DNA of 64,000 bases. It comes from Henriciella sp. (GTDB lineage Bacteria; Pseudomonadota; Alphaproteobacteria; Caulobacterales; Hyphomonadaceae). The translations under genes were made by a program, and so were the position numbers. Below are positions 1-21,233 of this stretch, one piece after another. The notes beneath the pieces are model-generated. The model saw only the letters and a program-made list of their open reading frames with translations. It was not told the DNA's origin and made no database searches. Within the stretch, counting starts at the first letter, position 1, and every line of letters begins with the position of its first letter. Location of the stretch: assembly GCA_030066975.1 (NCBI GenBank), contig JASJAO010000002.1, positions 248,001 through 312,000 of the forward strand. Reading direction: 5' to 3'.

Positions 1-695
1 TAAGCGACGATCGCCAGCGCAGGGTTGCCCCGGAAGGGGCCGGCTCCTTCGAACTGGATGGGGAATGGCTCGACGAGGATCTGACCGCGCAGGGCTATCT
101 GCGATTTGGCAAACGTGCTGTGCGCGCCGATCTCGCCGAACGGCTCGGCTGGGAGCTCTCCAAACGCCGCAAGGAAGCGGGCAAAGCGACGTTCGAAGTA
201 CCGACAGATCTCGCCTCGATCATCTCCTGTCCGCTTGAGGATTTTCATGTTGTGCTGAAGGGTTTTGGCGTTGTCGCGGCCCAGAAAGACAAGGAGTCCG
301 GCGCGGTGACTTTGTGGCGGTTCCAGTCACGCGCGTTTCAGGAAGAACAACGCAAGCGGCGCGAAAGCCGTCCACCGCGCAAGCCGCGCGGTGAAGGCGC
401 TCGTCCTGCGGGCAGACACAAAGGCAAAGGCGGACATCGGCCTTCGGGTGGCAAGTCCGGCACATCTCGTCGCGGTGCCCCTCGCGAGAGACAACCGGAC
501 CCGAACAGCCCGTTTGCTGCACTTGCCGCTCTGCTGCCGCCTGAGCCGCCGAAGCCGAAGAAGAAACGGAAGCCTAAGAAACAGAAGCCGACAGATTCGA
601 CTGCGACACAAGCATCGCCTCAAGCTGTTCCATCGGACACCGATGCCCCCGCCGCGCCTGAGCCAACACCATCAAAATCAACCCCTGATGCCTGA
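1..695 (+). CDS. C-terminal part of a DEAD/DEAH-box helicase (5' end outside window)
   Basis: The reading frame is open from the first bases (codons in phase with position 3) to a TGA at 693-695, so this is the 3' end of a longer gene. The visible part has a folded segment (about the first 110 residues), then a long basic, low-complexity tail rich in Arg, Lys, Gly and Pro, ending in a Pro/Lys and Ala/Ser/Thr/Pro run. Identification as the tail of the alphaproteobacterial helicase (MgpS/Suv3-like) rests mainly on context: in many alphaproteobacteria such a helicase directly precedes an S4-domain gene, a ferredoxin and carD, exactly as here. The helicase motor motifs lie upstream and cannot be seen. 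Its stop overlaps the start of the next gene by 8 bases, suggesting translational coupling. Confidence 0.7.
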   Translation, partial: SDDRQRRVAPEGAGSFELDGEWLDEDLTAQGYLRFGKRAVRADLAERLGWELSKRRKEAGKATFEVPTDLASIISCPLEDFHVVLKGFGVVAAQKDKESGAVTLWRFQSRAFQEEQRKRRESRPPRKPRGEGARPAGRHKGKGGHRPSGGKSGTSRRGAPRERQPDPNSPFAALAALLPPEPPKPKKKRKPKKQKPTDSTATQASPQAVPSDTDAPAAPEPTPSKSTPDA

Positions 696-5130: not shown

Positions 5131-5796
5131 CTAGCTGGAATCAAACGCAGAGCGGGTAAAATAGTGCAGATCGATCAGCGCTTGGGTGCTGACCGGGTGC
5201 TTTTGCCGCCGCGCTTTGGTGACGGTCGGCGGATGGCCGAGCCGGAGCGGATTGGTCCGGGTGGCCCCGGTCTTGCGCCCCGCCCGCTGCCGCTCGAGCC
5301 AGCGGGCCATGCGGCGCGCGTCTTTTTTGGGCTGTTCAAGCACAGCCTCAAGCCGCTGAAACCGTTGGACAAGGGTGCCCGGGTCCACGAACGCGTCATC
5401 GTCTGAGGGCATGGTCAGGGCGCGAGCAGGCGTGTCAGCGACAACCTCATCGCCGGCCTCGGTCACTTCATACCAGAGCGCGAGCGCGCTTGGCTGCGGC
5501 TCGGTCAGCGGAAAGGCTAGCCTCTGAGGTTTGGGCAGGTCGCGGAGCCGGGCGAGGGCGTCCGGGTCGGTCTCGCGCGGCGCAGTACGCACCGGCAACA
5601 CTTCGGTGAGGGCCATTAACAGCAGCGCCCGGCGCACCAGCGCCTCGGCCTGACGCAGCAGGATCAGCGTCTCGCGCCGCGCCGGCGCGCGCAGCAGCCC
5701 GCCGGGGATAAGCGCGTCGGCAAACCGCGTCACCAACCCCCGCACCGCGCGCCACCCCCGCGCCAAAGCCAGCTCTGTACTCTGCTCCATCGTCAT
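5131..5796 (-). CDS. Conserved-looking hypothetical protein, unrecognised family
   Basis: 221 residues, cytoplasmic by appearance (no signal peptide or membrane helix that I trust). The N-terminal half has an amphipathic helical segment rich in Leu, Ala and Arg (TLILLRQAEALVRRALLL), the middle is acidic and Pro-rich, and the last 70 residues are very basic (KKDARRMARWLERQRAGRK and following). Codon use and GC match the core genome. It converges with the P450 gene with 3 bases between stops. I do not recognise a domain. The basic C-terminus could bind nucleic acid, but that is speculation. Confidence 0.6.
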   Translation of the reverse strand: MTMEQSTELALARGWRAVRGLVTRFADALIPGGLLRAPARRETLILLRQAEALVRRALLLMALTEVLPVRTAPRETDPDALARLRDLPKPQRLAFPLTEPQPSALALWYEVTEAGDEVVADTPARALTMPSDDDAFVDPGTLVQRFQRLEAVLEQPKKDARRMARWLERQRAGRKTGATRTNPLRLGHPPTVTKARRQKHPVSTQALIDLHYFTRSAFDSS

Positions 5797-5922
5797 GAGC
5801 GCGAGTATGCGGGGGATGGGCGTTGGGTCGGATTGATTTTTTGGAAGTGGTCGCTGTTTGGGTGCCCGGTTTGGGGCGATTTTAATCGCTCATTACTTCC
5901 GCAAGGGGTGAAAGACCGAACA

Positions 5923-6282
5923 TTAGATTTTTGATACGCCGAGATCATCTCGTAAGGCTGCCTTAAGTCTGTCGTGAGCCTCATATCTTGCTGCTACGTC
6001 GTCATTTGTTTCAACGATTTTGGCGACAGCTTCACGCACAAGAGGAGGGGCGACTAAATCACAGCGCATTTGCCAATAAGCAAAATTTTTGGCGGCTTTG
6101 TCAGACCGAGAAACAGCCGCCTCGTGATAAGCTTCCAACAATCCGATGTATGCCGCCTTACGCTCTTCGAAATTCCTCTTTCTCGTCTGACTTCGGTTTT
6201 GCAGCCAAGATTGGATGAACGCCGTAATTATTGAACCAAGCCCAAATGCTGTTAAGAGCGGAAGAATGAACTCGGGATTCAA
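5923..6282 (-). CDS. Small membrane-anchored hypothetical protein
   Basis: 119 residues from a TTG start at 6282, preceded by purine-rich AAGGGAAAGAGA. One N-terminal transmembrane helix (about residues 5-25, ILPLLTAFGLGSIITAFIQ) is followed by a basic, helical, probably coiled-coil cytoplasmic region. This layout (single anchor then a charged helix) recurs in many small proteins of mobile or defence-type regions. It lies 22 bases downstream of the GIY-YIG nuclease gene on the same strand, in the same visibly lower-GC tract, so the two probably form one transcript. Function unknown; no database family recognised. Confidence 0.6.
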   Translation of the reverse strand: MNPEFILPLLTAFGLGSIITAFIQSWLQNRSQTRKRNFEERKAAYIGLLEAYHEAAVSRSDKAAKNFAYWQMRCDLVAPPLVREAVAKIVETNDDVAARYEAHDRLKAALRDDLGVSKI

Positions 6283-6304
6283 ATTCTCTTTCCCTTGACG
6301 TTAC

Positions 6305-7009
6305 TCACTGAAATTTTCGCCTCTTGAATGCCCGTATGTCTTCGCGCGTGAGTTTGAACCACTCGCCATTTGCACGCTTGTCAGAAAATCTTCGATGCCA
6401 GTAGCTTTCGATCCCACTTGGATCGTCTGTCCGTATCGTATGAACAAGATCAACCTTTTCAGGCATTGAAACACCGATTTCTTTTACACGACGCTCGATC
6501 TCGTCACTTCGACCGATTTTGAAATGAGCGCCAGATTTCAAAAGGTATACGAAACCTTCACGAGCACTTTCCTGTGTGGCTTTTGTGTCTTCTTCGTCTG
6601 GCAGCAAGTTGGCGATATCTGCAAACTCTTCATTTTCGGCTACCCATGCTGAAAGCGCTTGGAGCAACGACGCCTTGTTACCAAAATGCTTCGAAAATGT
6701 TGTGTGAGAGGGAAAGCCCTCGTTGTCGCGCGCATACATTCGCACATCAACTTCGGCGGGTATGCGTCCGAGTTGTCGAACAAACTCCGCATATTGCTGA
6801 AGAATATTATCTGATGAGAGTTTACCTTGCTTTTTGTTGGGCTCGAGACCTGCCTCAACAAGGGCGGCACTCCAGCTCCTCCAATGGACGCCATACCACT
6901 CAGGTTTTCTAATTCCTGTTTCTCTCTCAAACACCCTCATGCCCGGAGCACGATCATACTTTTCATAAACTCGCTGAATTTCGGATAGTATGAATTCACG
7001 CGATGGCAT
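6305..7009 (-). CDS. GIY-YIG nuclease-domain protein (T5orf172/MUG113 type) with two homing-endonuclease-associated repeats
   Basis: 234 residues from the ATG at 7009, which has AGGA about 7 bases upstream; an earlier in-frame ATG at 7057 lacks such a site. Residues about 4-53 and 65-118 look like two copies of the homing-endonuclease-associated repeat, a helical DNA-binding module (each with an Arg-Xaa-Pro turn: RAPG, GRIPAE). A linker precedes a C-terminal GIY-YIG domain of the T5orf172/MUG113 kind from about residue 151: FVYLLKSG and FKIG supply the two GIY-YIG strands, R167 and R173 the basic helix, E201 the likely catalytic acid, H205 the following His, and GEWFKL the closing strand. Expected to nick or cut DNA. 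Lower GC than the flanks suggests acquisition by transfer. Confidence 0.8.
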   Translation of the reverse strand: MPSREFILSEIQRVYEKYDRAPGMRVFERETGIRKPEWYGVHWRSWSAALVEAGLEPNKKQGKLSSDNILQQYAEFVRQLGRIPAEVDVRMYARDNEGFPSHTTFSKHFGNKASLLQALSAWVAENEEFADIANLLPDEEDTKATQESAREGFVYLLKSGAHFKIGRSDEIERRVKEIGVSMPEKVDLVHTIRTDDPSGIESYWHRRFSDKRANGEWFKLTREDIRAFKRRKFQ

Positions 7010-7398
7010 AGTGGGGTCCTGCTTGGGGTATTGACCACACCCGTAGCACAACAGCAATTGGTCAAATCCGCAAGTGGCTATTGGCTTGTTTCATCTCCTT
7101 CTGGGATATAGGGACCGAAAGCTGCATCTATACCTAAAAAATTTTAGACTGCTTACTCAGCCCATGCGGCCTGCCTCACACCGTCTCCACTTCCTTGGGG
7201 GCGGAGACTTTGCGGGGGTTCGCCTCGTGGCGGGGTTTGGGGAGGAGGCGGGATTGGCATCAGGCGAAGCCGACGCCGACATTCAGCCCGCTTGTGATGC
7301 GGATTTAGGATTATCGGCGAAATTGGTCCAGTAGCAGAGACAAAGTCTTCGCAACACCGTGTTACCAAAGCCTTTGAAAGAGGAAGGAGGTTCGGAAA
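7010..7398. other. Intergenic stretch between nuclease gene and secreted-protein gene
   Basis: About 390 bases without a convincing gene. It holds the start region of the nuclease gene, the decayed gene copy at 7167-7282, and the strong ribosome-binding site AGGAAGGAGG (7380s) of the gene at 7399. No tRNA or integrase attachment site was recognised. Confidence 0.6.
7167..7282 (-). pseudogene. Decayed 3' fragment of the gene at 8361-8633
   Basis: On the minus strand this stretch encodes a diverged copy of about the last 37 codons of the intact gene at 8361-8633 (VGVGFA, CQSR, LLPKPR, then PRK and the PKEVE ending), including the same stop context and 9 further shared bases. The Trp codon TGG of the intact gene is TGA here and six bases are missing. 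Only this tail is present; nothing matches the first half of the gene. It is therefore a non-functional remnant of duplication or recombination. The intact copy and this one lie in the same orientation as direct repeats around the secreted-protein gene. Confidence 0.75.
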
Positions 7399-8241
7399 AT
7401 GGCTCAACACGTCGCCGAGTGTTTCTTGCAGGTATCCAGCATCTTTAAGCTCTCGCTCCTTGCGCTCGTGGCATCCAGTCTACCACTGCACGCGCAGGCC
7501 CTAGACGGTCTTCCGGAAACAGGCTCTGAAGAGGCTCACCCACCGATCACGGGGACAATGGATGTTGTGGGGATGGAACTGGTCGAAGATCGCGGAGATG
7601 AGGCGCGGTTCACCTTAACGCTTGTAAACACTACGAATGCCGACTTTTCCGGTCTTGTGGTTTCGGTTTACCCAAATCTGACATCGGGTCTGGAGGTCCG
7701 TGATGCCGTTTTGGATATTGGCGCGGTGAGATCCGGTGAAACCGTTACGCCGAGCCCGACATTCACCGTGCTTGACGCGACAGCTGGCTCGACAGGACTC
7801 ACGGATCTACACTTTGCGGTCGACGATCGAACACACGTTGACGGGCTAGACCTCGACAAGAATGGACTTCGAGATGACGTGGAAGTGCTCATCGAAGCGA
7901 TTGTGCCCGATGAAAATAATGCGGTTGAGCTCGCGGATAAGTATGCCCGAAGCGCGGTCAGGTTTTACCGACAAGACACACCGGAAACGGCGAACGAAGC
8001 CTTTGATGATGTCGAGAACCTTTTGCTTTGCTTGTTGGAAACCGAACTCACGACCGATGTGAGCATGGACGACATAACGACACGTATCTTAATGGAAATC
8101 AGTAATACAGATGAACGATTGGCAGCCCGGTTGAAGGCGTTGGATTTGGCCTATTCCGTTCGGCAAACACGGGCTTTCCCGTCGGATGAGCAGATCGCCC
8201 GGTTCTGCAGCGAAGCACTAATCCCCGATAACGCCAAGTGA
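7399..8241 (+). CDS. Secreted protein with a calcium-binding-loop motif, function unknown
   Basis: 280 residues. A long signal peptide is visible (hydrophobic core about residues 18-30, likely cleavage after HAQA near residue 34). Residues about 50-140 are beta-rich with repeated Thr/Val strands, resembling the immunoglobulin-like domains of exported bacterial proteins. Residues 151-162 (DLDKNGLRDDVE) form a DxDxNGxxDDxE loop like the calcium-binding loops of thrombospondin type-3 or EF-hand-like repeats. The last 110 residues are helical and hold a few Cys. The ribosome-binding site is strong (AGGAAGGAGG). It sits between the two copies of a duplicated gene tail. No enzymatic function recognised; probably periplasmic or cell surface. 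Confidence 0.7.
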   Translation: MAQHVAECFLQVSSIFKLSLLALVASSLPLHAQALDGLPETGSEEAHPPITGTMDVVGMELVEDRGDEARFTLTLVNTTNADFSGLVVSVYPNLTSGLEVRDAVLDIGAVRSGETVTPSPTFTVLDATAGSTGLTDLHFAVDDRTHVDGLDLDKNGLRDDVEVLIEAIVPDENNAVELADKYARSAVRFYRQDTPETANEAFDDVENLLLCLLETELTTDVSMDDITTRILMEISNTDERLAARLKALDLAYSVRQTRAFPSDEQIARFCSEALIPDNAK

Positions 8242-8343: not shown

Positions 8344-8360
8344 AAAGAGCCCGGCCTGCC

Positions 8361-8633
8361 TCACACCGCCTCCACTTCTTTCGGGGTGGAGGCTTTGCGG
8401 GGTTTGGCTTCCTGACGGGGTTTGGGGAGGAGGCGGAAGCGGGATTGGCACCAGGCGAAGCCGACGCCGACATCGAGCAGGGCGTCGGAGCGTCCGCACG
8501 GGCACATGAACTCAAGGACCGCCCAGACGCGATAGGTCTCGCCTTTGACCAGGGGCACGGGCTCCCCGGTCACATGATTGGGCGCGGCGTTGACACACAG
8601 CACCAGATCACCAGAACCGACATCGTAACTCAT
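8361..8633 (-). CDS. Small conserved hypothetical protein with SH3-like N-terminus
   Basis: 90 residues. The N-terminal half (GDLVLCVNAAP, then EPVPLVKGETYRVWAV) resembles short beta-barrel proteins with a VCV and a GxxYxV strand that are common as small ORFs in alphaproteobacterial genomes and phages. Cysteines at 13, 44, 46 and 62, with the MCPCG pair, suggest a possible metal site. The C-terminus is basic (LLPKPRQEAKPRK). A decayed copy of its 3' part lies at 7167-7282. Function unknown. Confidence 0.65.
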   Translation of the reverse strand: MSYDVGSGDLVLCVNAAPNHVTGEPVPLVKGETYRVWAVLEFMCPCGRSDALLDVGVGFAWCQSRFRLLPKPRQEAKPRKASTPKEVEAV

Positions 8634-8696: not shown

Positions 8697-9137
8697 TCAG
8701 GCCGTGCGGGAACTTGCGTACCAGACCCAGAAACTGATCAGGATGGCCGAGCCGGAGACAATCGTCATCAGCGTGCCGGGGATGAAATGGACATAGCCCG
8801 GCAGGTCGACAAAGACGAGATAGCCGAGATCGAGCAGACCGCCGACCATGCCGGTCACCCAGATCGCGGTTGTGTTTCCGCGCCAGATGAAGACCGCGCC
8901 AATGACGGTCACCAGGCCGCCCCAGAGCAGGTTCCAGCCATGCTGATCGAGAATGCCACCAACCGCTGCGTGATAGTCGGCCTGTAGCTCTTCTGGCGGA
9001 ACGGCGTCGGCAATGGCCTGGAAGCCGCCGGACGCATCGGCGGGGATGACAATGATGCCAGCCAGCATGTGGACCAGCCCCCAGATGATCCAGAGGATCG
9101 CCGCGACTTTGAGTAAATGAAGGTGCGTATTTGACAT
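8697..9137 (-). CDS. Four-helix integral membrane protein, divergent from marR
   Basis: 146 residues with four predicted membrane helices: about 9-30 (VAAILWIIWGLVHMLAGIIV), 66-86, 88-110 and 115-138. The start has a good AGGAG site. I do not recognise a named family; similar small four-helix proteins are annotated as DoxX-like or simply membrane proteins. It is transcribed away from a MarR-family gene across a 100-base region that holds a perfect palindrome, so it is probably the regulator's target. Nothing in it indicates the substrate or stress involved. Confidence 0.75.
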   Translation of the reverse strand: MSNTHLHLLKVAAILWIIWGLVHMLAGIIVIPADASGGFQAIADAVPPEELQADYHAAVGGILDQHGWNLLWGGLVTVIGAVFIWRGNTTAIWVTGMVGGLLDLGYLVFVDLPGYVHFIPGTLMTIVSGSAILISFWVWYASSRTA

Positions 9138-9237: not shown

Positions 9238-9675
9238 GTGGATCACGAAGCGACCCTCGCGCTGCAACTCGACCGCCTGATGCGGCGGTTTCAGGCTGAG
9301 CTGCATCCGCGCGCGGTAGAGATCGATGCGGCCAAGGTCGGCCCGATCGGGGGCATGATGCTGATCGCGATCGGGGAGCGCGGGGCGATCTCGTCACAGG
9401 CGCTGGCGGCGGCGCTGGGCCGGGACAAGTCGCAGATCTCGCGCGTGGTGAGTCTGTTGATCCAGAAACAGTTGGTAGAGAAACGCGCCCATGCCGAGGA
9501 CGGGCGGGTGTCGGACCTGGTGCTGACAGAGCGCGGCGAGCTGCAAGTGGCCGGATTTAACGGCGCGCTGAAGGAAGCCACGCGCCAGACGCTGAGCGCG
9601 CTTAGCCGCGATGAGATGGAGCAGTTCTCAGCGATGCTGTCCAAAGTGCTGCAAGAAGCGCCGGACCCGCCTTAG
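9238..9675 (+). CDS. MarR-family transcriptional regulator
   Basis: 145 residues starting at GTG 9238 with AAAGGA 8 bases upstream. The winged helix-turn-helix is at about residues 30-100: the recognition part SQALAAALGRDKSQISRVVSLL is followed by the wing with the family's conserved DGR (AEDGRVSDLVLTERG). The flanking helices make the dimer interface. Expected to repress itself and the divergent membrane-protein gene through the palindrome between them. The effector is unknown. Confidence 0.9.
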   Translation: MDHEATLALQLDRLMRRFQAELHPRAVEIDAAKVGPIGGMMLIAIGERGAISSQALAAALGRDKSQISRVVSLLIQKQLVEKRAHAEDGRVSDLVLTERGELQVAGFNGALKEATRQTLSALSRDEMEQFSAMLSKVLQEAPDPP

Positions 9676-20667: not shown

Positions 20668-20991
20668 TTAGTTCGATGCCAGGGTGATTGGCAGTTTCGA
20701 ACCTTCGTAAACAGCTGTCAGCATTGGCGCGTTGATTTTCTCTACCGCGTTAGCAGCCATGGTCGCCACACATCGGCGATCATAGTGGTTGAACCCGTAA
20801 AGATCGACACGGCAAACTTCTTTGGCCTGTTTGACAAGGCTCGCATACGTAGCTGTCGCACCTTCAGGCGTGTTGAGAACAGTGTGATCATAGTAGAGTT
20901 CTGCCGTCACTGTTTCGACATTTGATGTCTCAGCAAAAGCGGGCGCCGCCAGAAACATACTCGCACAGAGCAATGCAATTGAGGATTTCAT
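20668..20991 (-). CDS. UrcA-family secreted protein
   Basis: 107 residues with a signal peptide (MKSSIALLCASMFLAAPAFA, cleaved near residue 20). The mature part has the short UrcA pattern with two cysteines likely paired (EVCRVDLYGF and RRCVATM) and the terminal Ala-rich helix. The family is abundant in Sphingomonadales, Caulobacterales and Hyphomonadales and has no known function. A longer frame to 21165 is rejected because it adds residues before a clear signal peptide. Confidence 0.85.
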   Translation of the reverse strand: MKSSIALLCASMFLAAPAFAETSNVETVTAELYYDHTVLNTPEGATATYASLVKQAKEVCRVDLYGFNHYDRRCVATMAANAVEKINAPMLTAVYEGSKLPITLASN

Positions 20992-21233
20992 GGTTTTATC
21001 CTTGTGTGAGTCGGGATTTGACCCCGACGTCAAAAATGTACCATGAAGAAATGATGCATCGCAACATAAACTTCGCGGCGCTGCAGCAAAGCGGGTATGT
21101 CGATGCGCATGGAAAATCGGTGATCCAGTCGCAAAAGCGTAACGTAAGGGATGATTCGCACGCAATTTTGGCTGCGACTATACTGTAATGCATACCTTTG
21201 CTGCGCCGCGACAAGGCAGAGGGTGCCCGGAAC

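Follow-up and report, generated by a model that had tools for sequence, protein, structure and literature searches.

The window analysed here is a 64,000-nucleotide stretch of a Henriciella sp. contig. Two genes lie in close tandem on its minus strand, a nuclease gene followed after 22 nt by a gene for a small membrane protein. Their coordinates, together with those of the horizontally transferred block that contains them, are listed in Table 1. A longer form of the nuclease, starting at a TTG codon at position 7057, is also possible.

Table 1. Features of the two-gene block (window positions) and domains of the nuclease (residues)
Feature	Position	Strand	Remarks
GIY-YIG nuclease gene	6305-7009	-	ATG start, 234 aa (ORF list)
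Small single-pass membrane protein gene	5923-6282	-	TTG start, 119 aa (ORF list, hydropathy)
Intergenic gap, 22 nt	6283-6304	-	Same gap and same TTG start of the small gene in congener L035
About 100 nt upstream of the nuclease, part of the transferred block	7010-7109	-	Candidate leader/promoter
Whole transferred block, ~1.19 kb	5920-7109	-	85% identical to L035 5901-7090; unrelated flanks
First HEAR (HNH_repeat) of the nuclease	residues 2-56
Second HEAR of the nuclease	residues ~63-144		Extent from structure matches
GIY-YIG (MUG113/T5orf172) domain of the nuclease	residues ~151-234		C-terminal

The block is nearly the AT-richest part of the window. Its GC content is 47.2%, compared with 58.4% for the whole window, and only 0.03% of 1190 bp segments (step 10, whole window) have a lower value. 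GC3 is 0.44 in both genes against a mean of 0.66 (s.d. 0.075) for 60 ORFs, a mechanically chosen, non-overlapping reference set that includes the two cassette genes themselves and some probable non-genes. A further ORF of low GC3 (0.467), for which no Pfam match was obtained, is located at 20668-21165 (-).

No integrase or transposase domain was detected by Pfam in six neighbouring genes, namely the P450 gene and those at 5131-5796, 7399-8241, 8361-8633, 8697-9137 and 9238-9675. The adjoining gene 5131-5796 (-) has a paralogue (56% identical) on another contig of its own genome (L022) and is patchily distributed in the genus (13 of 29 genomes). The gene 7399-8241 is bracketed by a direct repeat of 114 nt (7167-7280 and 8352-8465; 81% identical); a search of the genome itself with positions 7150-7300 gave matches at just these two sites.

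The nuclease and the small membrane protein

The nuclease was matched by Pfam to MUG113 (E = 4.9e-18), to HNH_repeat in two stretches (E = 1e-12) and to T5orf172 (E = 5.9e-10). HNH_repeat is the homing endonuclease associated repeat (HEAR), and on this basis the two repeats would be expected to bind DNA. Residues Y155, K164, R174, E201 and H205 are identical in all 56 aligned sequences, that of the window among them. The highest 19-residue mean hydropathy is just 0.48, so the protein was assigned no transmembrane segment. Relatives numbered 1,020 in one search and 3,616 in the other, the two sets overlapping. Through their GIY-YIG domain, 26 of 26 relatives match the PADLOC defence candidate PDC-S57, for which we know of no mechanism; in the window nuclease the match is confined to residues 151-226.

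The small protein consists of an N-terminal hydrophobic segment, a basic stretch, a long helix and a helical bundle. The hydrophobic segment is single (residues 5-23; Kyte-Doolittle 19-residue mean of 2.1, compared with 0.8 for the best segment elsewhere downstream), and AlphaFold2 predicts helices at residues 3-12, 15-58, 61-77, 80-91 and 96-114 with a pLDDT of 92. Basic residues flanking an anchor indicate the cytoplasmic side (the positive-inside rule), and those past the anchor of the small protein suggest a SNIPE-like topology with the N-terminus outside and the C-terminus inside. No Pfam family was matched, and 118 database proteins, the protein itself counted, are related to it at E ≤ 0.001. 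It resembles uncharacterised phage proteins, both through PHROG family phrog_10731 (E = 4.6e-4 across residues 2-60) and through a BFVD structure match to A0A8S5MVL7 (TM-score 0.79, E = 2.6e-3, 17% identity); for neither do we know of a function or of a link with a nuclease. More distant relatives are encoded on plasmids of Piscirickettsia, Yersinia ruckeri and Citrobacter (L063, L064 and L065), with IS630, Tn3 or recombinase genes nearby.

An earlier note, made from the letters of this DNA alone, had described a nuclease with two HEARs and a T5orf172/MUG113 GIY-YIG domain with its catalytic residues, a single-anchor protein encoded across a 22-base gap, an AT-richer tract in high-GC DNA and no transposase or integrase in the vicinity. 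The Pfam matches, the invariant residues, the coordinates and hydropathy, the GC and GC3 values and the scan of the six neighbours bear out this description.

Transfer, recurrence and co-divergence of the pair

Both genes are rare. Among 385 sampled genomes of the class, the own genome counted, the nuclease was found in four (E ≤ 1e-20) and the small gene in two. Within 105 genomes of the family, nuclease matches were obtained in five, namely the own genome, G022 (90%), G087 (52%), G097 (43%) and G010 (nuclease domain only), and the small gene was found in two, the own genome and G022 (88%).

The second copy of the pair, L035 (a Hyphomonadaceae MAG, taken as contig G022:C2), was compared with the window over 12.7 kb. 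The block of Table 1 is the sole region in common, and no similarity outside it was detected by blastn or tblastx. Homology ends at the stop codon of the small gene and, on the other side, extends upstream of the nuclease to 7109; this upstream region gave a 75-nt match (85% identical) that covers the first nine coding bases of the nuclease and has no comparable counterpart in the other 13 loci compared. Synonymous divergence between the two genomes (dS, NG86) is 0.64 and 0.80 for the cassette genes, compared with 1.08 for rlmN, 1.13 for carD and 1.22 for P450, although the P450 of G022 is possibly not a strict orthologue of that in the window; YN00 gave 0.48 and 0.49 for the cassette and 1.15 for carD. 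The cassette is less diverged than these three other genes, and its dN values of 0.055 and 0.061 show that both proteins are under purifying selection. Because the window and L035 share the block amid unrelated genes, and because it has diverged less than rlmN, carD and P450, it has moved as a unit, and the two genes have been exchanged horizontally as one block.

No terminal repeats, direct or inverted, were found at the block above the level of shuffled sequences; the longest words shared by the window and L035 beside it are 6 and 8 nt (a comparison made without a shuffle control). Relatives show a rearranged gene order around the window site and therefore offer no clean empty site. In the region corresponding to window 3.7-40 kb, for instance, P450 is followed in G026 (L092) by homologues of window 33.2-39.9 kb. 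Two of 29 genomes have the gene that lies upstream of the block in L035.

A profile scan of the fetched loci gave 15 distinct loci with a full-length or near full-length nuclease, and the small gene lies beside it in four: the window, L035, L038 (Sphingomonas soli) and L048 (an IMG/VR contig). The genes form a close tandem in the window, L035 and L048, overlapping or 10 nt apart in the last according to the start codon, and are divergent in L038. The nuclease is without the small gene in the remaining 11 loci (L036, L037, L039, L040, L042, L047, L060, L061, L062, L003 and L004; flanks of up to 1.5 kb per side for L003, L004, L060, L061 and L062), and the partner is therefore optional or has been lost. 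The small gene was likewise not found at loci with the nuclease domain only or at L049, where a remnant of 38 C-terminal nuclease residues is left. Viewed from the small gene, the nuclease is adjacent in four of nine distinct loci and absent from five: L045, L041 (near a contig end) and the plasmid loci L063, L064 and L065. These counts support recurrence of the two genes together. The earlier note had named recurrent pairing at variable sites as what would favour a mobile or defence cassette, and this is the pattern seen, in four of 15 loci, at unrelated sites in the window and L035 and with co-divergence; confinement to the same locus in close relatives, with ordinary GC and without joint occurrence elsewhere, is not what is observed.

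The identity matrices of the nuclease and the small protein were compared for seven pairs, giving a Mantel r of 0.949 (6 of 5040 permutations as high); for the four pairs observed side by side r is 0.956. The other three (P0121/P0004, P0262/P0065 and P0251/P0074) were paired from contigs of equal size and the same source, a matching that is suggestive only (offset controls gave 0-2 hits, the true offset two in each list). Divergence of the two proteins in step is supported, and may stem in part from shared host descent. On the nuclease tree, in which gains and losses of pairing are not told apart, the paired nucleases occupy three places; the three label changes compare with a mean of 3.7 on shuffling (140 of 500 shuffles as low), and pairing is thus spread, without significant clustering. 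L048 with L040 and L062 with L004 are joined on long branches, and these joins are possibly false. L037 was excluded from the trees as a broken copy.

Candidate functions of the pair

Among the matches listed in the open-access literature, none concerned a HEAR/GIY-YIG gene accompanied by one for a membrane protein. In PMC13190303, PD-lambda-1, that is SNIPE, is described as one protein with an anchor, DUF4041 and a GIY-YIG domain, which cuts phage DNA at injection and turns toxic once its membrane anchor is deleted; a third of its homologues bind the membrane by means other than a transmembrane segment. The pair resembles SNIPE in its C-terminal GIY-YIG domain, in a presumed DNA-binding part ahead of the nuclease domain, in a single anchor with the bulk of the protein predicted to be cytoplasmic and in the conserved catalytic glutamate (E201, 56 of 56 rows, the putative counterpart of SNIPE E414). 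The GIY-YIG domain matches the PD-Lambda-1 models weakly (E = 5e-5) and from profile position 337 on only; this match, limited to the nuclease domain, is present in five to six of 26 relatives. In the window, however, HEARs take the DNA-binding place, and since a Pfam scan of the nuclease, run to E = 1, found no DUF4041 and the anchor belongs to the small protein, the pair is not a SNIPE.

The pair is real, foreign, mobile and recurrent. As the best explanation we tentatively favour a nuclease that moves horizontally, is coupled to a membrane partner and is most likely directed against invading DNA, with the logic of SNIPE laid out over two genes. The coupling of the two genes is supported, and the parallel with SNIPE is drawn from analogy and gene linkage. 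The nuclease would bind DNA by its two HEARs and cut by its GIY-YIG domain; the small protein, sitting in the inner membrane and exposing its helical bundle to the cytoplasm, would hold or restrain it there. So tethered, the nuclease may cut phage or other invading DNA entering at the membrane and spare the chromosome. By analogy, anchoring, DNA binding and cutting, the three functions of SNIPE, would be divided over two genes. The more specific proposal of a two-gene membrane-tethered anti-phage nuclease, in which the SNIPE principle of telling self from non-self by the place where DNA enters has emerged, or been divided, within a different nuclease family, is in itself fairly unlikely.

The neighbourhoods bear on a role in defence. 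In L048 a gene for Abi_alpha (PF14337; PADLOC PDC-S47) lies at L048 6067-6810, 54 nt past the small gene, and in L038 AbiEi and AbiEii are encoded ~1.4 kb beyond the nuclease, with a phage integrase ~0.3 kb from the small gene. As a raw count, Abi genes are therefore near two of four pairs, and none were seen at the other two as far as these were scanned or read: PADLOC gave no defence genes among ten ORFs of the window, four of them adjoining the pair, and no Abi genes were noticed on reading through the L035 neighbourhood. IetA- and DolB-like PADLOC matches in the window were rejected, as Pfam identifies FtsH and Clp ATPases. Near the solitary nuclease of L036 there are an integrase-like gene, a hydrolase-like gene that defence models match in part and what we take to be a resolvase, while no defence-model matches were obtained among the scanned neighbours in L039, L060 and L061. 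The earlier note had proposed a defence or selfish-element role. This interpretation is partly supported: Abi genes near two of the four pairs would fit the former role, but the solitary nucleases of 11 of 15 loci would fit the latter no less well.

The main rival, which we judge somewhat unlikely, is that the nuclease is a selfish, free-standing homing-type enzyme of the T5orf172 kind. It would cut its target sites, and repair of the cut would copy its gene in; the membrane protein would be passenger cargo, perhaps useful to the host or a prophage. PMC10448857 describes free-standing homing endonucleases of phages that are encoded by T5orf172/MUG113 genes and have repeated DNA-binding domains, often near terminase, ribonucleotide reductase and capsid genes. 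The present nuclease shares with them the T5orf172/MUG113 domain, repeated domains that probably bind DNA, and a free-standing and mobile state; some copies lie in viral contigs, and phage protein families match the nuclease domain, the homing endonuclease family phrog_18411 weakly (E = 0.0016). The L042 copy is found among phage genes, presumably antisense between a terminase-like gene and others. The solitary state in 11 of 15 loci, at varied sites, suits a selfish nuclease at least as well; one copy (L037 5911-6615, broken) lies between genes that we take to be gmk and greA, an unusual place for a defence gene. Damaged copies point the same way: L037 has an in-frame stop and a match that starts at residue 31, L049 is reduced to the remnant noted above, and two of the four paired nucleases look damaged, L048 by an apparent frameshift in the first HEAR and L038 by replacement of the C-terminal tail. 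Mobile genes, and selfish ones in particular, commonly show such turnover. Homing, however, needs a matching empty allele, and blastn and tblastx detected no similarity between the window and L035 sites outside the block, which has no terminal repeat above shuffles. The phage endonucleases carry CapR/DUF723-type zinc fingers in place of the HEAR (TetR-like) repeats, and the present family is found at unrelated sites and in part has a co-diverging membrane partner. Cargo alone does not predict co-divergence. A selfish nuclease thus explains the solitary and damaged copies well, and the co-diverging partner and unrelated sites less well.

In two species the genes have stayed in tight tandem, the small gene starting with TTG after a gap of 22 nt, which would also suit a nuclease and inhibitor of toxin-antitoxin type, in which the small membrane protein holds the nuclease until stress or phage damage frees it. 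Co-encoded restraint is made plausible by the toxicity of SNIPE without its anchor (PMC13190303). We nevertheless consider this arrangement improbable: the small gene is oppositely transcribed in L038, and ten solitary nucleases have an open frame across the stretch read, so that the enzyme is probably not toxic as such; its occurrence alone in 11 of 15 loci likewise argues against strong toxicity. It is quite improbable that two unrelated accessory genes sharing islands are carried together by chance. Both are indeed rare accessory genes, the nuclease is absent where distant relatives of the small gene occur on plasmids, close to Tn3, IS630 and recombinase genes, and pairing is not significantly clustered on the tree; but chance neighbourhood seems unlikely given that rarity (4/385 and 2/385 genomes of the class), and it predicts neither co-divergence nor adjacency that persists through a change of orientation.

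If the tethered-nuclease explanation is true, the spatial rule by which SNIPE tells self from non-self would extend beyond a single protein architecture, and a large nuclease family could be assigned a role that can be tested. If the nuclease is selfish, the pair would show that a gene of this kind can gain a membrane-protein partner and retain it. In both cases, a small protein family of about 118 database clusters, with no Pfam name, gains a genetic context.
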